A stretch of 26,224 nt of DNA, taken from IMG/VR virus record IMGVR_UViG_3300049810_000550, positions 1-26,224 of that record; one strand, written 5' to 3'. This DNA is from a virus. Made by a program: the position numbers and the translations under genes. Positions 1 through 25,758 of this stretch are shown here, piece after piece. How positions within the stretch are numbered: the stretch's first letter is position 1; each line of letters starts with the position of its first letter. The notes beneath the pieces are model-generated. The model made no database searches. It was not told the DNA's origin and worked only from the letters and a program-made list of their open reading frames with translations.

Positions 1-162
1 TTCGTCAATATCAATAAGGACAATCTGTTCAGATTGTTTTGATTCCTGTCCTCTTTGCATCGAGTCAAAGAAAGACAGTCTCGCACTTTCAAGGAGAAAG
101 GGGTCGAGCAGTCTCAGGGTTATCATCAACCCCAGTGTAATAAGGACATGCCATGTTTTCAT
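1..162 (-). CDS. CHASE2-domain protein, N-terminal fragment (runs off the window)
   Basis: Only the first 54 codons are in the window. They encode an N-terminal hydrophobic segment (residues 4-16) followed by LRLLDPFLLES, LSFFDSMQRG and a run ending VLIDIDE. That succession (LR..DP, then a FD..Q element, then V.I.DIDE) is the start of a CHASE2 domain, an extracytoplasmic sensory domain usually found on adenylate cyclases, kinases and other signalling proteins. The output domain lies outside the window and is unknown. The ATG overlaps the TGA stop of the FecR-domain gene (ATGA), so the two are probably translationally coupled. In bacteria, FecR-domain and CHASE2 proteins are often neighbours. 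The family call is by motif recognition from a short fragment. Confidence 0.7.
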   Translation of the reverse strand, partial: MKTWHVLITLGLMITLRLLDPFLLESARLSFFDSMQRGQESKQSEQIVLIDIDE

Positions 163-1265
163 TGTTTAATACTTATAGTGGTATTACCGCCACCATTGAC
201 CGTAATGGGGTCAAGTTCCTTTCCATCAACATCTAGATTTATAGATGTCTCTTCGCTGTTCGAAACAGATATCTCCACGATAGATTGAACATTACGAATC
301 ATCGTAATCTTATCGCCCTCAACAACGGTGCTGATTTGAGTCACCGTGTCAAAGCCCTCACTCGTCCCTTCTACGACAGTATCACTCTTATCCTCTTTCT
401 CTTTCAACAATTCTGCATCTAGGTCAGAGTAACTATCTAATAGGTTTTCGAGGAGTTCCACATCAAGGAAATTGATATCAAGTTCAGTAAATTCCAGATA
501 GTCACGTTCAAACTCCTCGTTATCTAATAGTTGTTCATCGAGAAAGTCAATATCAAGAGGATTGATATTCTTACGACTGTCCACAGACGTATAGAACTCT
601 TGTTCTGTCATTCTCTCTTTGGGTGGATTGATAATCAAGATATTATCCAACATATCTAGAGTCAAGTCTAGAATGGCAGGATTGCTGGGAGGCGCCTCAG
701 TCACAGAGGTTGTGGTGGATTGAAACGGTTTGTTCAACACTACCTCACCAGTCATTGTCGAAACAATAATCTCACCCGATGATATACCATTCACATCAGG
801 TAATAATACTACAAGTGTGCGACCAAACTCGTCTACGGTCACAGTAAAGTCTGTGCCGCGAATACCGATTGAGGCAGTCGGTGTTCTCAATCTAATATTC
901 TCTTTCTCAATCGTCCCAAGTTTACCCGTAATGAAACGAGCAGTTCCCTGCGCGAATGTCATTGCAAGGTCAGACTTACTTGGGTCATCATCAAACACCA
1001 CATTGTCAATCACAATGCGTGTGTGTTCGGTCATGCGAAGTTTCGAATCATCAACGAACTTCACTTGCATACGCCCCTCGCCTGTGCGAAGGTCGTCTTT
1101 TGCTATTATATCAAACCCCTTTTCAGGTTCGATTTCATTTGTGTCTCTAACTACTTGTCTCCAGCCGACTGCACGGTCTATGAGACCGACATCCTTACTG
1201 ACAGCCGGTAGCGGTGCCAGAATCAGACTGAGAAACACATAAGGTATTATCTGTAGTCGTGTCAC
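159..1265 (-). CDS. FecR-domain exported protein
   Basis: About 368 residues. The N-terminus is a signal peptide (MTRLQIIPYVFLSLILAPLP, then AVS before KDVG). Residues about 25-200 form a FecR-like beta domain: an opening VGWRQVVR segment, then LRTGEGRMQVKFVDDSKLRM, then TPTASIGIRGTDFTV, which is the characteristic FecR TP.A..GIRGT element. The C-terminal half is Asp/Glu-rich and low in complexity (LDIDFLDEQLLDNEEFERDY and similar). The start chosen is GTG at 1265, preceded by GAGG; a TTG at 1283 is the alternative. The gene overlaps the end of the curlin-like gene by about 70 bases and its stop overlaps the start of the CHASE2 gene. FecR domains normally sense or relay signals at the periplasm; here the protein is probably secreted or periplasmic. 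Its specific role is unknown. Confidence 0.8.
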   Translation of the reverse strand: MTRLQIIPYVFLSLILAPLPAVSKDVGLIDRAVGWRQVVRDTNEIEPEKGFDIIAKDDLRTGEGRMQVKFVDDSKLRMTEHTRIVIDNVVFDDDPSKSDLAMTFAQGTARFITGKLGTIEKENIRLRTPTASIGIRGTDFTVTVDEFGRTLVVLLPDVNGISSGEIIVSTMTGEVVLNKPFQSTTTSVTEAPPSNPAILDLTLDMLDNILIINPPKERMTEQEFYTSVDSRKNINPLDIDFLDEQLLDNEEFERDYLEFTELDINFLDVELLENLLDSYSDLDAELLKEKEDKSDTVVEGTSEGFDTVTQISTVVEGDKITMIRNVQSIVEISVSNSEETSINLDVDGKELDPITVNGGGNTTISIKQ

Positions 1266-1932
1266 CTGAACCCTCGATTTCAATGCTCAATGTATCAGAC
1301 TGTAACGTTGACTGTTGGTCTATTTGAATATCCCAGTAGTTTGTTGTTCCAACGCCATCGATTGTTACAGAGTGACCATCATATCCGTCACCATCATAAT
1401 CGATTGTTACATTGTCTCCAGCGAAGTCAATGCTATTTGTTGCGTTGTTGATGTCAATATCAGCAGTTACACTGTTATAGTCACCGTCAACAATCCAGTC
1501 AACATCTGCGCCCGTTGCTTGGTCGTTGTTACCAATGCTCAAGTCCAGTGTGTTATTACCGCCGTCCAAATCGATTACCACATTGCCGTTACCAGCACCA
1601 TAGGTGTCAGTTCCATCAATGTCGATTGTGACTGTATTGGTGTCGCCATCGATGTCTAAATCAACATCACTGTTGTCACCTATAATAGCACCAAGAACTT
1701 TGTTGGTATCACCAACGGTATCGATACTCAAATTGATGTCATCGCCATCAACCTTCATTTTGGTTGTGTCATTAGCATTGTTACTAATTGTGTTTCCACT
1801 ACCGTCTTGAGTAACATCGATATCTACACCTGACCCTACTTGGTCAATGTAGACCGCATTATCAGCCCATACGGGCGATGTCCCTGCGTTTACTAGGAAC
1901 AACATCACAAAAATTCTTTGTAAAGTGTTCAT
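1195..1932 (-). CDS. Curlin-like Asp-rich repeat protein, probable curli substrate
   Basis: 245 residues with a signal peptide (FVMLFLVNAGTSPVWA, cleavage before DNA). The mature part starts with a curlin-like strand (AVYIDQVGSGVDIDVTQDG) and continues as irregular repeats of alternating hydrophobic and Asp/Asn residues, such as DVDLDIDGDTNTVTIDIDG and GNVVIDLDGGNNTLDLSIG. The I.Q.G..N-type spacing resembles CsgA/CsgB repeats, but Gln is largely replaced by Asp, giving a very acidic protein that could bind Ca2+ or form a beta-solenoid. Two cysteines lie near the C-terminus. It starts one base after the CsgG stop with a good Shine-Dalgarno (AAAGGAGAG). Position after csgF-csgG makes it the likely exported substrate. 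Homology to curlin is by repeat character and context, not proven. Confidence 0.7.
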   Translation of the reverse strand: MNTLQRIFVMLFLVNAGTSPVWADNAVYIDQVGSGVDIDVTQDGSGNTISNNANDTTKMKVDGDDINLSIDTVGDTNKVLGAIIGDNSDVDLDIDGDTNTVTIDIDGTDTYGAGNGNVVIDLDGGNNTLDLSIGNNDQATGADVDWIVDGDYNSVTADIDINNATNSIDFAGDNVTIDYDGDGYDGHSVTIDGVGTTNYWDIQIDQQSTLQSDTLSIEIEGSGDTTTDNTLCVSQSDSGTATGCQ

Positions 1933-1933
1933 C

Positions 1934-2737
1934 TTACTCTCCTTTGAATGTCCAGAACTTTTTTCTATTTCCGAGTTTTATAAGTTCTAAGACACCTGTT
2001 TCAATCGCTCGTTGAGTGGCAATCGAAACGCTTTCGTTTCGGGCAGTCCCAGACTCAATCTCAACGAGTCGAGTGCCCTGTTCCACATAACGAAATACGT
2101 CTCCGCCAAACGCGACAGATAGTATGGTCTTACTTGTTATGACATCAAGTAAAACCTCGCCAGTCGCAACACTTATCAACCTCATGTTGATTGTCACTGT
2201 GTCACGACTAAACTCTCTGGAAGAGCCGATGCCGAGATATCTCGCACCCGCACCTCCGCTTTCGGTAGAGTGGTCATATCCTACTATACCGCCTGCAATT
2301 ATCATACCAGCAAAGGTCAATGCCGGTAATTTTTTTGCACCATCACCTTCATAAGAACTTCGTGTCTGTCTTATGAGTTGTCTCTCTCTCGTTAACCAAT
2401 CTAGTGCAGACCTATCAACCACCTTAAAGAACTGACCGTTAGCCGCACGAGTCAAAGCACGAATCAGATAAACTTCTGGTGCTTGGGTAACCGCAGAACT
2501 AAATGATGTTCCGCCGTTTGCGTTTTGTTTCTTCTGTCCTGTTTGGTCGGTGAACGCATATAACGCCACCGTTGGTCTTCGTATCGGAGGTTCAATATTC
2601 TGTAATTCTTCTGTCAGAAGAGCCACTTGAACTTTTGCTGATTCTGGTTGCGAGGGGACATCCCATTTGTGTGAGGTGCAACTAGAAACCAAAATCGCCG
2701 ATAGGAATAACAATGACAGTCTGGCTACCATCTTCAT
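1934..2737 (-). CDS. csgG: CsgG-family curli secretion lipoprotein
   Basis: 267 residues, close to E. coli CsgG (277). The N-terminus is a lipoprotein signal peptide with a lipobox ending at Cys20 (AILVSSC). Recognisable CsgG segments are PPIRRPTVALYAFTDQTGQ (about 51-69), a variable Ser/Thr-rich stretch, FFKVVDRSALDWLTRERQLIR (about 103-123), LTFAGMIIAGGIVGYD (about 139-154), DTVTINMRLISVATGEVL (about 179-196) and a C-terminal helix. CsgG forms a nonameric outer-membrane channel that exports unfolded curli subunits. The start overlaps csgF by 56 bases. Both the fold and the order csgF-csgG-substrate support the role. A late promoter sits upstream of the operon. What the phage exports through it is unknown. 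Confidence 0.93.
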   Translation of the reverse strand: MKMVARLSLLFLSAILVSSCTSHKWDVPSQPESAKVQVALLTEELQNIEPPIRRPTVALYAFTDQTGQKKQNANGGTSFSSAVTQAPEVYLIRALTRAANGQFFKVVDRSALDWLTRERQLIRQTRSSYEGDGAKKLPALTFAGMIIAGGIVGYDHSTESGGAGARYLGIGSSREFSRDTVTINMRLISVATGEVLLDVITSKTILSVAFGGDVFRYVEQGTRLVEIESGTARNESVSIATQRAIETGVLELIKLGNRKKFWTFKGE

Positions 2738-3209
2738 CAGTTACCGTTAACTCCACTTCGTTTTCTAAATCATCTTTTACATATGAGATACCCGCGCCTT
2801 CAATCTCAAATTCACCTGAATCTGATGGGTTCTCACCGAACATCTCTTCCACAAGTTGTCTGGACAGTGTAGAGTAAATTCGACTTTCTACATTTCGTAT
2901 AAACTTAGCAAGTGTCGTATTCTTTGCGTCTCGTTCTAATTGTTTTTGTAAGTCTTCTAATTCTTGTTTTATTGCTTCTTTGCGTGATGTTTCTTGATTC
3001 TCAATCGTCAGATAGTGTGATGACTGATTGACACCATTGAATGATGGCGACTTGAAACTGTATTCGATTGGTGCGCCTATCGCATCTGTTGTCCAGAACA
3101 CTATTATACCAACCACTACGCCAACGATAAATGCTTTCCATAAATCTGCTCCTGACCAGATATTTGGCCCAATAGATTTACGAAACATATCTCTATTCTT
3201 TTGATTCAT
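2682..3209 (-). CDS. csgF: CsgF-like curli assembly factor with N-terminal membrane/signal segment
   Basis: 175 residues. A 25-residue n-region precedes a hydrophobic segment (about 26-45, AFIVGVVVGIIVFWTTDAIG), then a possible cleavage at AIGA/PIEY. The next part, YSFKSPSFNG (50-59), matches the CsgF start that plugs the CsgG pore (F.F.NP.FGG.P in E. coli), and is followed by a HYLTIENQETSRKEAI helix. The C-terminal half (FIRNVESRIYSTLSRQLVEE, then a beta-rich tail with VELTVTDEDGSQTVIVIP) corresponds to the CsgF helix and DRKTGQT-type strand region. CsgF binds CsgG at the cell surface and couples secretion to fibre nucleation. The long n-region is unusual and may make this an anchored rather than cleaved protein. 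Shine-Dalgarno AGAGAAGAG precedes the ATG. Confidence 0.85.
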   Translation of the reverse strand: MNQKNRDMFRKSIGPNIWSGADLWKAFIVGVVVGIIVFWTTDAIGAPIEYSFKSPSFNGVNQSSHYLTIENQETSRKEAIKQELEDLQKQLERDAKNTTLAKFIRNVESRIYSTLSRQLVEEMFGENPSDSGEFEIEGAGISYVKDDLENEVELTVTDEDGSQTVIVIPIGDFGF

Positions 3210-3441
3210 CTTCTCTTCTCTTTACTTCAATCGCTGTATCAAGTTTTTGTTGTAGACGAATGATATCATTGTCCAACATACGAACACGGTCAATCAAACC
3301 AACCAGTGTAGTTTGAGTTTCAGATAGAAAGACTTCAATCTTCTCTGTAATTGTTTTCCAGACGAAATAAATCATATACAACATACCAACCGCCGCTACA
3401 ATAGGAAAACCGAAATCTTTAATTGCGGTTATAACATCCAT
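3193..3441 (-). CDS. Small one-helix membrane protein, YvrJ/holin-like, paralogue 1
   Basis: 82 residues. One transmembrane helix (about 8-30, FGFPIVAAVGMLYMIYFVW) is followed by an amphipathic, probably coiled-coil tail (LVGLIDRVRMLDNDIIRLQQKL) and a charged end. The FGFPI.AA segment just inside the membrane resembles the YvrJ family of phage and plasmid small proteins. The upstream gene has the same design (ELGFPIAAA, then ALDNRVKTMNHDLIRLD), so the two are diverged tandem paralogues. The start codon overlaps the stop of the upstream gene (TGATG) behind GGAGAG. It could be a holin-like or membrane-scaffold partner of the curli genes that follow; function is unknown. Confidence 0.75.
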   Translation of the reverse strand: MDVITAIKDFGFPIVAAVGMLYMIYFVWKTITEKIEVFLSETQTTLVGLIDRVRMLDNDIIRLQQKLDTAIEVKRREDESKE

Positions 3442-3722
3442 CAGTCTCTCCTCGCATCGTTTTTACCGTCTGCGCGGGAGATACGATTCAGGTCTGGTCT
3501 TATTCCTAAAACGACACACATAGTTGTATCGAGACGAATCAGGTCATGATTCATCGTCTTTACTCGATTATCGAGTGCTGATACGATACCGTGTATTCCC
3601 TTCACCTGACCGATAACACCATCCATGATATATCGTAGGGTCAGAAACATAAAAAAACCACCAATTAAGGCGGCAGCAATAGGGAAACCCAGTTCAGCAA
3701 TGATTGTGAACACTTGTTCCAT
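3441..3722 (-). CDS. Small one-helix membrane protein, YvrJ/holin-like, paralogue 2
   Basis: 93 residues and the first gene of the late curli operon. It has a transmembrane helix (about 12-32, FPIAAALIGGFFMFLTLRYI), then a helical tail with ALDNRVKTMNHDLIRLD and a basic C-terminus. It shares the GFPI.AA and D.D.IRL landmarks with the next gene, pointing to tandem duplication. Translation starts 11 bases after the predicted late-promoter start site, with the Shine-Dalgarno GAGGTAA at the very 5' end of the message. Holin is a reasonable guess from size, topology and late timing, but nothing in the sequence proves it. Confidence 0.75.
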   Translation of the reverse strand: MEQVFTIIAELGFPIAAALIGGFFMFLTLRYIMDGVIGQVKGIHGIVSALDNRVKTMNHDLIRLDTTMCVVLGIRPDLNRISRADGKNDARRD

Positions 3723-3738
3723 TTACTTACCTCATGCC

Positions 3739-3746
3739 TATTTATA
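3739..3746 (-). promoter_or_regulatory. T4-type late promoter for the curli operon
   Basis: The minus strand reads exactly TATAAATA, the T4 late-promoter element recognised by gp55-containing RNA polymerase and activated by gp33 and the gp45 clamp. The predicted start near 3733 leaves an 11-base leader with GAGGTAA before the ATG at 3722. It lies between the terminator at 3768-3798 and the first gene of the run down to position 1. Confidence 0.8.
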
Positions 3747-3825: not shown

Positions 3826-4287
3826 CTATTGAACTATATGAAGTATAACTCGTTCCTCGTCAGTAAAGTTATACCCCGCATATGTTCTACTTCCATCATA
3901 GGTGAGTGTTTCACCCATCTTCCACTTCTTGAGTTCATAATTATCTGAAAATATCATTCCAGTTTCACCTTCTGGAATAATCAAAGGTATATGATGAACC
4001 ACTGCATCATCATAGTATTTGATTTTTGTGTTGGCGGGAACAAACGATTTAGGATAGAGAGTTATAAAGTGCGCGGCTCGTATTCTCTCATCTAATAATA
4101 GTTCAAAAGTATTTGGTATCAGATAACTGATTTTAGAAGGTCTACCGTATTTTAGTATGACAGTATCCCATCCCTTACCAAACGAGTTCTGTTCTTTATT
4201 TGGTATTCTCTTTGATTTGTCTTTTACTACACGATAGTCTGTTAGAAGAGTATCGATGTTAGACAGCAATTTTTCTTCCAGACTCAT
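3826..4287 (-). CDS. Aspartyl/asparaginyl beta-hydroxylase-like protein, possibly inactive
   Basis: 153 residues from the ATG at 4287, which has GAAGAG at good spacing (an ATG at 4311 is further upstream). The middle and end (RAAHFITLYPKSFVPANTKI, VVHHIPLIIPEGETG, WKMGETLTYDGSRTYAGYN, then EERVILHI) follow the pattern of the Asp/Asn hydroxylase group of double-stranded beta-helix oxygenases: a substrate strand, H.PL, a GE...FD.S..H..N element and a closing R.IL. The usual iron ligand His after the D.S element is Tyr here, and no clean HxD is seen. It may be catalytically dead, or the alignment may be off. It overlaps the TauD-like gene by 29 bases and is the last gene before the terminator. 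Confidence 0.5.
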   Translation of the reverse strand: MSLEEKLLSNIDTLLTDYRVVKDKSKRIPNKEQNSFGKGWDTVILKYGRPSKISYLIPNTFELLLDERIRAAHFITLYPKSFVPANTKIKYYDDAVVHHIPLIIPEGETGMIFSDNYELKKWKMGETLTYDGSRTYAGYNFTDEERVILHIVQ

Positions 4288-5287
4288 ACTCTTCTCTTCG
4301 AATATCATCAACCAAAGTTAAGAATTCAGAACCGTCCATTACTTTACCGTCCACCGTATACTCATCTTTGTGGCCCTCGCCTGAATATAGTTTGTCCATA
4401 TATGAAATATTACGCCACAACTTACGCATATTACCATCTATGATATCGGTTGGACGGGCGTGTAGAGTGATGTTCTGTTCCATGTAGACAACCTGACCGT
4501 CCTTCCAGTCGTGAGTGTAGATGTATTCAGGCCGATTGATTTTCTCCCAGAGATATTCCTTGAACTTCAGACTTTCTTCTTCGGTCATACCATCGAACTT
4601 ATGGAAGAGAGTGCCAGGGAAGTGAATACCCTTCACACCAGACGGTGTTGACTGTTGTAGTTTACACATCATACCATCGACAGGGACTTGATTATATCTG
4701 ACCATCTGTTTCTGTTCGTCAATCAGATTACCCGTAAAGTTTTCTCTGTTCCAACGATACACACTCTGGAGTTCATCAACCATCGTTCTGTCTTCGTGAT
4801 TCAGTTTGTTATATGCTTCTTTGGTGCAAAGAAATGCAGTCTGTGACCCTTCGGTATGTTCAACCGAAACCAAACCAATGATACGGTCTCCATCATTGAG
4901 GGCAACTTGGTCACTGTGCCAACCCAATATGCCATTCGCAAAAACACCCTTCGGTCTACCTTTCTTATTTCTCTGATAGGTAACAACCGACATGGTGTTG
5001 CGATAGTCTGGTTCAATCTCTGATGAACCGTTAAGAATATTCAGTCGAAGACTATTCCAATGAACACCCTTCATTGTCCCTACCGATGTGGCAAGGTGAA
5101 CGATTGAGTGTGCGGGACTACCCCACTGCATCTGAACATCATAGGTTCTCTTCTGGTCTAGTTTCTGGTCTACCAGAACGACAGACTCATTCGCGACAAG
5201 TCTACCCAAGTCTGCGATATTCTCGTCAGAGTAGATATCAAAGTCATAAGCTTCGACTGCGTTGTTTTTTAGAGTTCTTACTTTCAT
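4259..5287 (-). CDS. TauD/TfdA-family 2-oxoglutarate/Fe(II) dioxygenase
   Basis: 342 residues. The iron site is visible as W-H-S-D (His124, Asp126) and a distal His276 in NITLHARPT, followed by Arg288/Arg292 in MRKLWR, which would bind 2-oxoglutarate. NRNTMSVV/YRNTM and [12 protein letters not shown] are typical TauD-fold surroundings. TauD-family enzymes hydroxylate small organic acids such as taurine; the substrate here cannot be read from sequence. Length is slightly above the family norm (about 280-300) because of a C-terminal extension (from about 300). The gene follows tRNA-Pro on the same strand, behind a distant AGGA, and overlaps the next gene. It is probably an auxiliary metabolic gene or a modifier of host metabolism or protein. 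Confidence 0.85.
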
Positions 5288-5308: not shown

Positions 5309-5385
5309 TGGTCGGGGTTGGAAGATTCGAACTTCCGACCTCTCGCTCCCAAAGCGAGCGCACTACCAGACTGTGCTAAACCCCG
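5309..5385 (-). tRNA. tRNA-Pro (anticodon UGG)
   Basis: The minus strand folds into a full cloverleaf: acceptor stem CGGGGTT/AACCCCG, D arm around GCACAGTCTGGTAGTGC, anticodon stem CTCGC/GCGAG with loop TTTGGGA (anticodon TGG), and T arm GGAAG-TTCGAAT-CTTCC. The discriminator is A and the CCA end is encoded. UGG can read all four proline codons by wobble. It sits between a membrane-protein gene and the TauD-like gene and should be processed out of their common transcript. Confidence 0.95.
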
Positions 5386-6240: not shown

Positions 6241-6261
6241 GATATCTCCTAATATAAAAGT

Positions 6262-6553
6262 GGGGACTTCTGTTGCTAGGCGTCCCCTGACCCCGAAGAT
6301 TATGCCGCGAGGGCGTAATCCTCATGTGCGTAATTATCGTTTGCACTTACGAGTTTGTTGCGCTCTTGCGGATGGGATTGCCCGTCCGACTCACAGGTGG
6401 CTTCCGCACCTATTCTCCACATTCCTACTTGATACCTGTCGAACCTATTTCGCCCCCTCAGAGGGGGTTTGGTGGAGGCGGGGGGTATCGCACCCCCGTC
6501 CAGTCTATCTTTCAGTTTGCTTCAACGAATACGATAAAAATCTATGAATTAAC
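6262..6553 (-). ncRNA. ssrA: Permuted (two-piece) tmRNA
   Basis: The minus strand holds tmRNA parts in circularly permuted order. First comes the acceptor piece: a T arm (GGGGG-TGCGATA-CCCCC), the acceptor 3' strand GCCTCC and ACCA ending at 6470. A 12-base spacer follows, which with its flanks forms a CCCCC/GGGGG hairpin. Then the coding piece starts at 6457 with GGGGGCGAAATAGGTTCGACA, the typical tmRNA 5' end and D-loop. The acceptor stem GGGGGC/GCCUCC has a G-U at the third pair, the alanine identity element of tmRNA and tRNA-Ala. Pseudoknot-like stems follow, then the tag frame (6300-6344) and a GGGGAC/GTCCCC hairpin (6262-6287). Permuted tmRNAs are typical of Alphaproteobacteria and some other lineages. 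The 5' end is set from the late promoter and is approximate. Confidence 0.92.
6300..6344 (-). other. tmRNA tag-peptide reading frame
   Basis: Starting at the resume codon GCA after CGTAAGT, the frame reads ANDNYAHEDYALAA and a TAA stop. The ANDN start and ALAA end are the hallmarks of a proteolysis tag recognised by ClpXP and related proteases. ANDN-type tags are common in Alphaproteobacteria. Confidence 0.93.
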
Positions 6554-6558
6554 ACCAT

Positions 6559-6566
6559 TATTTATA
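6559..6566 (-). promoter_or_regulatory. T4-type late promoter for the tmRNA unit
   Basis: The minus strand reads exactly TATAAATA, overlapping the stop codon of the small gene upstream. The predicted start is near 6553, just ahead of the tmRNA acceptor piece. It would drive tmRNA and possibly, by readthrough of the 6262-6287 hairpin, the pseudoazurin to dioxygenase genes down to the terminator at 3768-3798. Confidence 0.72.
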
Positions 6567-6768
6567 CTCCAAGAATATTTCCCGCTTTGTTCTGGTCAAG
6601 AGTGCCACCATCTCGCATGTGCGTTTCTAACTGTTCAAAGTAGAATGCAGCATCATCATGACCATACTCTTCAAGAACTTCTTTACATGCCTTGAAGAAC
6701 AACATAGTCTTCATCAGGTTTCCGTCACCCATAGGTTTGGATTTTTTAGCGGCTCTTTGGTTCGACAT
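6562..6768 (-). CDS. Small hypothetical protein
   Basis: 68 residues from the ATG at 6768, preceded by AAGGAG with a 10-base gap. It has a basic start (MSNQRAAKKSKPMGDG) and a helical body (MKTMLFFKACKEVLEEYGHDDAAFYFEQLETHM). No signal peptide, membrane segment or known motif is seen. Its start overlaps the end of the gene upstream, and its stop contains the late promoter of the tmRNA. Confidence 0.65.
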   Translation of the reverse strand: MSNQRAAKKSKPMGDGNLMKTMLFFKACKEVLEEYGHDDAAFYFEQLETHMRDGGTLDQNKAGNILGV

Positions 6769-6952
6769 TTTCAACAAACTCCTTCATCAATCTAAACATC
6801 TTGACCATCTGGTCTTCTTCTTGTATCCCAGCAGGAACACAGATTGCCTCCTTGTAGAGTTCACGGAACTTTATTGCCGCCAAATCACACATCTCTTCTG
6901 ACGGATACAATATTTCCATATTCATTGAAGCGACAATCAGAAGAAACTTCAT
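6746..6952 (-). CDS. Small hypothetical protein
   Basis: 68 residues, starting in an ATGA overlap with the stop of the previous gene. It looks like a small helical cytoplasmic protein (EEMCDLAAIKFRELYKEAI, then EDQMVKMFRLMKEFVENV). An internal ATG (MNMEILYP) could be used instead. I do not recognise it. Confidence 0.6.
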   Translation of the reverse strand: MKFLLIVASMNMEILYPSEEMCDLAAIKFRELYKEAICVPAGIQEEDQMVKMFRLMKEFVENVEPKSR

Positions 6953-22322: not shown

Positions 22323-22691
22323 TTACTTTCTTCCACCTTTATTCACCTTTTCTCTTATTGTTTGTAATTGAGAAGGTGATAGGAGTGACAAGACTTGTCT
22401 TGCTTTTTCATTACTATAGCCATAGTATTCCTTCACCAACTCAAGGTCATTTTCTAATTCAGGTTTTACCCATTTGGAAAAACGTTTCCGTTTCCTAACT
22501 ATATTTATAAGAAATTGATATTGTAGACGGTTGTCTAGGTGGTGATATTTGTTCATCTCATTTGCGAGAACAACAGTATCAGGAAAGTAAGAAAGACTGC
22601 GGTTGACCATAAACCCATTATAGGTCTTCTCGTCTTCCATCACATCTTTCTTTGTATAGTTTATCGAATTTACATAATCAAAGGGATTCAT
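22323..22691 (-). CDS. 62: Clamp loader small subunit, T4 gp62-like
   Basis: 122 residues (T4 gp62 is 187, so this is the shorter marine form). PFDYVNSINYTKKDVMEDEKTYNGFMVNRSLSYFPDTVVLANEMN and HLDNRLQYQFLINIVRKRKRFSKW are typical of marine T4-like gp62. With gp44 it loads the gp45 clamp. Here it is separated from gp44 by dCMP deaminase and five small genes, unlike T4 where gp44 and gp62 are adjacent. Its start follows the deaminase stop immediately. Confidence 0.92.
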   Translation of the reverse strand: MNPFDYVNSINYTKKDVMEDEKTYNGFMVNRSLSYFPDTVVLANEMNKYHHLDNRLQYQFLINIVRKRKRFSKWVKPELENDLELVKEYYGYSNEKARQVLSLLSPSQLQTIREKVNKGGRK

Positions 22692-25080: not shown

Positions 25081-25758
25081 TTATGCTCCGTAAGTTGATG
25101 ATTTTTCAAGTGCAATAAAGTATTCAATCGCAGATTGTTTACTCGTAAATTGTGAGATTAATTTAGAGGAAATCCCAACCTCAAAGTCTTCGTTGACAAC
25201 TTTCACATTACCAACATTCAGAATAAAGTTGAAGTCAACCCCTTCTGGATAGTCACCCTCTACCTCGATAGAGAATGCATTAGATGTTGCATCCTTACTG
25301 TCTACAACAGACAAACGGATTGCACCAGTTGTTGGGGTAATAGAAATCTCTTCATGACCCAATGCAGCGGCCGCACGTTTGACTTTACCCAACGTATCAG
25401 TATCTAGGGTAAACTTAACCTCTGGTTCTGGCATATTGATATCCTTGCCAGGTGATGTCAACATCTCTGGGTCAGAGAAAAAATACTTCACAGAGGAACG
25501 ACCAGTAGAGTCACCGACTACAACATAGTCTTTTTCAAATGAAAGACGAGGAGAGTCAACCAATGATAGAACATTCAGAAACTCATTCAAGTCATAGATT
25601 CCAAAACCTTGCGGAAACTCTTCATTGAGTTGTGCAGTAGATAGAACATTACGAGCGACTGAAATAGTCTTGATAACGCTACCTTCTGTGATTACGATAT
25701 TAGGATTGATTGTTGCATAGTTCTTCAATACTTGCAACGTGGTATCTGTTAGTTCCAT
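25081..25758 (-). CDS. 45: Sliding clamp, T4 gp45-like
   Basis: 225 residues (T4 gp45 is 228). MELTDTTLQVLKNYATINPNIVITEGSVIKTIS is the typical N-terminus; LNEFLNVLSLVDSP, ISITPTTGAIRLSVVD and the C-terminal SKQSAIEYFIALEKSSTYGA also fit. It forms a trimeric ring that holds the polymerase on DNA and, in T4, activates late transcription at TATAAATA promoters, which ties this gene to the two late units in the window. AAAGGAA precedes the ATG. Confidence 0.96.
   Translation of the reverse strand: MELTDTTLQVLKNYATINPNIVITEGSVIKTISVARNVLSTAQLNEEFPQGFGIYDLNEFLNVLSLVDSPRLSFEKDYVVVGDSTGRSSVKYFFSDPEMLTSPGKDINMPEPEVKFTLDTDTLGKVKRAAAALGHEEISITPTTGAIRLSVVDSKDATSNAFSIEVEGDYPEGVDFNFILNVGNVKVVNEDFEVGISSKLISQFTSKQSAIEYFIALEKSSTYGA

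Follow-up and report, generated by a model that had tools for sequence, protein, structure and literature searches.

Two-piece (permuted) tmRNAs as such are already in print for phages. In a 2022 report, two-piece forms made up 53 of 133 unique phage tmRNA structures, 50 of them marine or aquatic (PMC9004378), and the tmRNA database paper gives 79 unique phage tmRNA sequences of all forms. Among the known carriers of a two-piece gene are the phages Melnitz and Mosig. For Melnitz, an early promoter was called with BPROM, only intergenic or nearly intergenic promoters being kept, and the published claim about timing (early production, sparing viral proteins) rests on this promoter prediction. 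The late promoter of T4 is described as a TATA box of 8 bp, placed about one helical turn upstream of the start (PMC2988020), with TATAAATA at the -10 site working with Gp45, Gp55 and Gp33 (PMC10132071). No description of a conserved geometry of late or composite promoters at viral two-piece tmRNA genes was found in print among open-licence papers.

The window analysed here is a stretch of 26,224 nt from an IMG/VR virus record, and a complete two-piece tmRNA of the alphaproteobacterial type was identified on its minus strand at 6531-6259. The first-pass annotation had proposed a phage-encoded permuted tmRNA of this type from the letters alone and had set a covariance-model search beforehand as the test that could refute it; the permuted model matched. 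In particular, RF04321 (permuted tmRNA) scored 110.9 bits (cut-off 47) and RF01849 (alphaproteobacterial tmRNA) 100.8 bits (cut-off 50), far above both cut-offs, each model being matched from its first to its last position, and the search on the window's own record gave an E-value of 8.9e−25. The acceptor piece (6470-6531, minus), delimited by the RF04321 match and by covariation, comprises the 5′ strand of the helices to the coding piece, the T arm, the acceptor 3′ strand and the ACCA end, with CCACCA at 6475-6470. It is followed by a 12-nt intervening spacer, AACCCCCTCTGA (6458-6469, minus), which would be removed from the mature RNA, and by the coding piece (6259-6457, minus), running from its GGGGGCG 5′ end to the CCTAGCAACAGAAGTCCCCACT 3′ domain, with a 3′ end predicted from the RF01849 match to the model end. 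The acceptor stem has 7 bp (6457-6451 with 6474-6480), the third pair being G6455-U6476 (G3-U70), and the tag reading frame ANDNYAHEDYALAA with its stop occupies 6300-6344 (minus). The ACCA end at 6470, the 12-base spacer, the GGGGGC start at 6457, the G-U third pair and the tag were thus all as originally described. No tmRNA was reported at this locus by ARAGORN, which missed 29 of 73 dereplicated viral loci, the window copy included. Single-strand folding, a method that shows neither pseudoknots nor separate pieces, gave the window tmRNA a stability no better than that of shuffles (z −1.03).

Regarding the gene setting, a 71-aa ORF (6562-6777, minus), examined by profile and sequence comparison, lies upstream of the tmRNA; it had no PHROG or Pfam match and was unlike the Melnitz late coactivator. 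Its stop codon (6564-6562) is overlapped by the T4-type late promoter box TATAAATA (6559-6566, minus). Downstream, a plastocyanin-like gene (PF00127; 5803-6240, minus) starts about 20 nt past the tmRNA 3′ domain, and the tRNA search placed a tRNA-Pro(UGG) at 5309-5385 (minus), the same sequence of which appears directly 3′ of the tmRNA in the relatives L191 and L192. Also downstream of the tmRNA, a TauD-family dioxygenase gene was observed at 4259-5287. A curli-type phage cluster like those of Melnitz and HTVC008M lies at 159-3209 and contains CsgF, CsgG, a FecR-domain protein and a 245-aa protein that matched no PHROG or Pfam family. The ThyX, CsgG, CsgF and FecR genes of the window recall these two phages, whose CsgG proteins are 39-42% identical to that of the window. 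The window has a T4-like gene set (UvsX, DnaB-type helicase, clamp, clamp loaders, RegA and DNA polymerase), and its gp45-like sliding clamp (phrog_223; 25081-25758, minus) belongs to the T4 late-transcription machinery; neither gp33 nor gp55 turned up in the part of the window ORFs whose proteins were scanned. The best isolate for the window DNA polymerase was Phage C48C1 (62%), the record of which has a late sigma annotated and gave no RF04321 match.

Relatives were gathered by CsgG (47 loci) and by the small upstream ORF (23 loci), 22 of the latter being searched together with C48C1 and the remaining one (L124) being covered with the CsgG records. RF04321 matched in 17 of the 47 CsgG records and in 14 of the 22 upstream-ORF records, amounting to 24 distinct records, and its absence elsewhere means little because many records are fragments. 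Moreover, a pattern scan of viral contigs returned at least 120 stretches, so viral two-piece tmRNAs are common, in agreement with the literature. A direct DNA search of the phage collection gave no match with the window tmRNA and none with a stretch of L107. An alignment (A1) was then considered, consisting of 30 distinct viral genes taken from 44 candidate references with the box and a spacer shorter than 35 nt; as a shorter-acceptor type is among the 14 excluded references, the figures on covariation and start sites apply to the longer type. For the T arm and the helices between the acceptor and coding pieces, 26 pairs were proposed by RNAalifold. The pair cells were standard in 98.4% of cases, changes on both sides occurred in 17 of the 26 pairs (131 cells), none of 500 shuffles reached any of the five measures and slid registers were 41.5-50.3% paired, figures that lean towards the structure because it was derived from the same alignment. 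The compensatory changes, found in helices 1-4 and 6, indicate base pairing between the acceptor and coding pieces, and G3-U70 was kept in 30/30 genes. A chance resemblance or a pseudogene was rejected by the Rfam scores and the covariation.

The tag frame, the conservation of which in related phages had been named in advance as a further test, was kept in close relatives with small changes (ANDNYAHEEYALAA in L045 and ANDNFAHEDIRLAA in L127). Among the 73 viral representatives, a search aimed at frames of the type Ala...AA found one in 69, while four gave none. The spacer sequence was common to the window and L045; that of L127 was AACTCTCTCTGA, and others were unrelated, with lengths from 8 nt upward. 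The idea that the spacer folds as CCCCC/GGGGG into a compact processing signal was therefore abandoned. Within the pseudoknot-1 region, comparison with relatives showed an additional hairpin of about 28 nt (6365-6393, minus), which was present in L113, L202 and L203 and absent from L045, L192, L193 and L208, in the manner of a swapped module. Unusually long tags, ANDNALSNVTFVDFSAPVTAVNEDFALAA and AKATINNGEFTFVNFGALNDFAVNEDFALAA, both ending in AVNEDFALAA, were observed in L034, L054, L028 and L061 (29 aa) and in L029, L083 and L097 (31 aa), with L034, L029 and L028 far above the Rfam cut-off. The shorter-acceptor group (L115, L118, L006, L032, L042, L047 and L103) has mostly short tags (APVALAA, APTGYALAA).

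The T4-type late box just upstream of the gene, also noticed at first pass, was found at 6566-6559 and holds a conserved place in relatives. In 50 of the 73 dereplicated viral tmRNAs, TATAAATA appeared 50-100 nt 5′ of CCACCA, most commonly at 68 nt, while 200 dinucleotide shuffles gave the box in a mean of 0.435 and a maximum of 3 of 73. This count covers loci that fitted a pattern and had 160 nt or more of upstream sequence (164 viral loci with duplicates, and 48 of 50 bacterial ones); L201 and L204-L207 fall outside the locus pattern, yet the box is present in them. The window is one of the 73 representatives (L001) and one of the 50 with the box; Melnitz and HTVC008M are also among the 73, with Mosig and the nine further isolates named below outside. 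Other dereplication cut-offs gave the box in 63/106, 33/48 and 21/34. No TATAAATA site occurred in the 11,096 bases lying 150-300 nt upstream of the same viral loci, and the late box was found in none of the 48 bacterial tmRNA loci, which are richer in G+C than the phages. Furthermore, all 24 tmRNA-positive records reached via neighbouring proteins, several of them near-copies, had the box, at 66-71 nt in 19 and at 91 nt in the five that share the window's own promoter stretch. Within the window, three TATAAATA sites were found against 1.3 expected; a single one is unremarkable there, and its conserved place in relatives is what is remarkable. The two further sites, both on the minus strand, lie at 3739-3746, just upstream of the ORF 3441-3722, and at 22502-22509, inside the clamp-loader gene.

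When transcription is assumed to begin exactly 13 nt downstream of the box's first base, the first acceptor base that pairs follows this start by 0-4 nt in 29 of the 30 aligned genes. The sole exception is the window, where the predicted start (+1 near 6553) lies 23 nt before the first paired base, in line with a box-to-gene spacing 23 nt longer than usual. Owing to this 23-nt insertion between the box and the acceptor piece, the window RNA would begin with a leader (6532-6553, minus); most of the leader is the insertion, which the window has in common with the five contigs that share its promoter stretch (L198, L199, L200, L209 and L212). In the shorter-acceptor group the distance between box and CCACCA is smaller (56-60 nt), and here too the box immediately precedes the helix, as predicted for L042 and L006 and by inspection in others.

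Against the late reading, the box was absent in 23 of the 73 viral representatives, 11 of these being one mismatch off. They include HTVC008M with six contigs, and a clade bearing TATATATA at the same place. This clade (L014, L046, L052, L068 and L090) is well supported, and the TATATATA that replaces TATAAATA in it is possibly a changed late box. The gene was present and the box absent in the T4-like isolates Mosig and HTVC008M and in nine others (Cp1R7A-A1, RcXuper, RcSimone-Hastad, RcRudolph, DSS3P8, DSS3_MAL1, Bajun, MD18 and EliS-L02) whose records do not place them in Kyanoviridae, Melnitz alone among the 12 isolates examined having the box. Matches to T4-like query proteins did not separate loci with the box (45/50) from those lacking it (18/23). 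Outside the tmRNAs, TATAAATA sites preceded an RBS and an ATG-started ORF in 35/206 cases and the reverse complement did so in 5/255; other AT-rich words reached 22/194 and 19/144, so this count adds little. As a separate observation, permuted tmRNAs scored above the Rfam cut-off in isolates whose records show none there (L277, L278, L279, L280, L312, L315, L316 and L218), a hypothetical protein being annotated at the place in L280, and a GOLLD RNA was seen within about 300 bases before the permuted tmRNA in L312, L313 and L315 (phages DSS3P8, DSS3_MAL1 and MD18).

Taken together, the locus is very likely a working viral two-piece tmRNA gene, transcribed late from TATAAATA and serving trans-translation with host SmpB. 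The anatomy, the helices, the tag, the promoter box and its conserved geometry are read from sequence, and processing, charging, SmpB use, timing and benefit are proposed on that basis as follows. A phage-modified RNA polymerase (late sigma, coactivator and sliding clamp) would start late in infection at the box 6566-6559 and produce a single precursor with the acceptor piece, the 12-nt spacer and the coding piece. Host enzymes would then excise the spacer, RNase P cutting before G6457 and 3′ trimming proceeding to the encoded CCA at 6470, and the acceptor stem with the further helices would hold the two pieces together. The tmRNA would be charged by host AlaRS through G3-U70. A search for SmpB (PF01668) gave no match in 12 phage records, which include fragments and records lacking a tmRNA, and was positive in 10 of 14 control genomes; therefore, host SmpB is the likely partner. 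With it, the tmRNA would enter ribosomes stalled on broken mRNA, add ANDNYAHEDYALAA and free the ribosome, and the tagged protein would be degraded. The benefit would consist of ribosomes being kept in use during mRNA destruction.

Instead of late transcription, the gene could be an early one under the host sigma-70 polymerase, as the Melnitz paper proposes on the strength of the BPROM call, with TATAAATA as a variant -10. Indeed, 26 of the 50 box-bearing viral tmRNAs, Melnitz included, have a TTGACA element (at least 5/6 letters) that precedes the box at a spacing of exactly 17 nt, while spacers of 15, 16, 18 and 19 nt accounted for 0, 1, 0 and 0 of the 50 loci, and spacers of 20-24 and 25-29 nt for 7 and 6. 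As a control, 209 TATAAATA sites located elsewhere in these viral loci were considered, and TTGACA stood at 17 nt in 3 and at 16-18 nt in 12. Several further loci presented TTTACA- or TTTACT-N17-TATAAT just before or overlapping the box. The sigma-70 explanation is nevertheless unlikely for several reasons. The window has no -35 (the best match at spacers 15-19 has 2/6 letters), and the sole sigma-70-like site in the vicinity on the same strand is no better than expected by chance. Moreover, distinct cases of TTGACA-N17-TATAAT numbered 101 in these loci against 23 of TTGACA-N17-TATAAATA, and TATAAT thus looks like the ordinary early form. Finally, in the shorter-acceptor group, where TATAAT precedes or overlaps the late box in the seven loci listed above, TATAAT lies further out while TATAAATA stays just before the helix (duplex prediction for L042 and L006; inspection for L115, L118, L032 and L047).

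What the -35 elements point to is a combination of both promoter types. In many cases the element resembles a sigma-70 promoter with a -10 that would have been converted into a late box, and TTGACA-N17-TATAAATA is probably a composite early/late promoter. A -10 turned into a late box could reconcile the early BPROM prediction for Melnitz with the late box found in the same phage. There is about an even chance that the composite works in full, being used early by host sigma-70 and late by the phage complex, with the RNA starting on or next to the first acceptor pair and needing no 5′ end processing, so that the tmRNA would be made throughout infection; the window lineage, without the early half, would then be late-only and carry a short leader. 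Accordingly worded, the late expression put forward in the first-pass annotation fits the window lineage and does not extend to the whole class, many relatives pairing the box with a sigma-70 promoter.

The purpose of the RNA could also be hostile to the host, the viral tmRNA competing with or poisoning host trans-translation, or redirecting tagging to host proteins. An RNA without its own SmpB could compete for that of the host, the Melnitz authors suggest that host proteins are selectively tagged, and in phage DS6A a form without a tag reportedly inhibits the tmRNA of the host (PMC11915505). Nevertheless, the tag frame, G3-U70 and the tRNA-like helices are all kept and would be needless for a poison, and this group of explanations is considered improbable.

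The position of the box and the host-type early promoter bear on when the RNA is produced. They suggest that the tmRNA is made late or throughout, while phage structural proteins are made. A conserved late box, often behind a -35, would thus favour ribosome recycling over the selective destruction of host proteins. In practice, the near-fixed distance between box and acceptor helps to locate such genes, many of which are missed by ARAGORN.

As for the origin of the gene, 385 alphaproteobacterial genomes drawn evenly from the class were searched, 42 of which had a match at E ≤0.001, the best being 83% over 71 nt. In a tree of 118 rows, one branch (support 99/85) set 67 of the 70 viral rows against 48 bacterial and three viral ones, a result weakened by differences in base composition, by nine long rows and by an unconverged bootstrap. 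Only bacterial loci containing GGTTCGAC entered the tree, so that donors from SAR11 and Rhodobacterales may be absent from it and no donor can be named. The capture of ssrA from an alphaproteobacterial host first suggested for this phage was not supported as a recent event, there being no close bacterial copy among the genomes searched and most viral copies grouping apart from the sampled bacteria. Within the sampling limits of the tree, this pattern suggests a long-standing viral lineage and not a new acquisition. A functionless passenger or integration relic taken up with host DNA is very improbable indeed: tmRNA genes are integration sites of which prophages carry fragments (PMC9004378), but the gene here is complete, with strong covariation, a conserved promoter geometry, a T4-like gene set around it and no close copy in those bacterial genomes.

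Compared with the known systems, the window shares with the alphaproteobacterial permuted tmRNA (RF01849) the gene order, the tRNA-like domain, G3-U70, the start of the tag and the CAACAGAA 3′ domain, and differs from it in the separation of most viral rows in the tree and in the late box, found in none of the 48 bacterial loci sampled. Closest to it are Melnitz (a Methylophilales phage) and Mosig (a Pelagibacter phage), Kyanoviridae in their records, which are T4-like and marine and carry an alpha-type permuted tmRNA with ThyX nearby, although their spacer and tag differ from those of the window. Melnitz has curli genes, like the window, and TATAAATA 71 nt before CCACC, as in the window's relatives; in contrast, it shows TTGACA-N17 before the box, which the window does not, and a glutamine riboswitch beside the tmRNA (RF01739, 52.8 bits), none being found in the window. 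Mosig, unlike the window, has no box. With respect to the T4 late promoter, the difference is that the box here would drive a structured non-coding RNA, with almost no leader in the relatives and, in many of them, with a -35 ahead.
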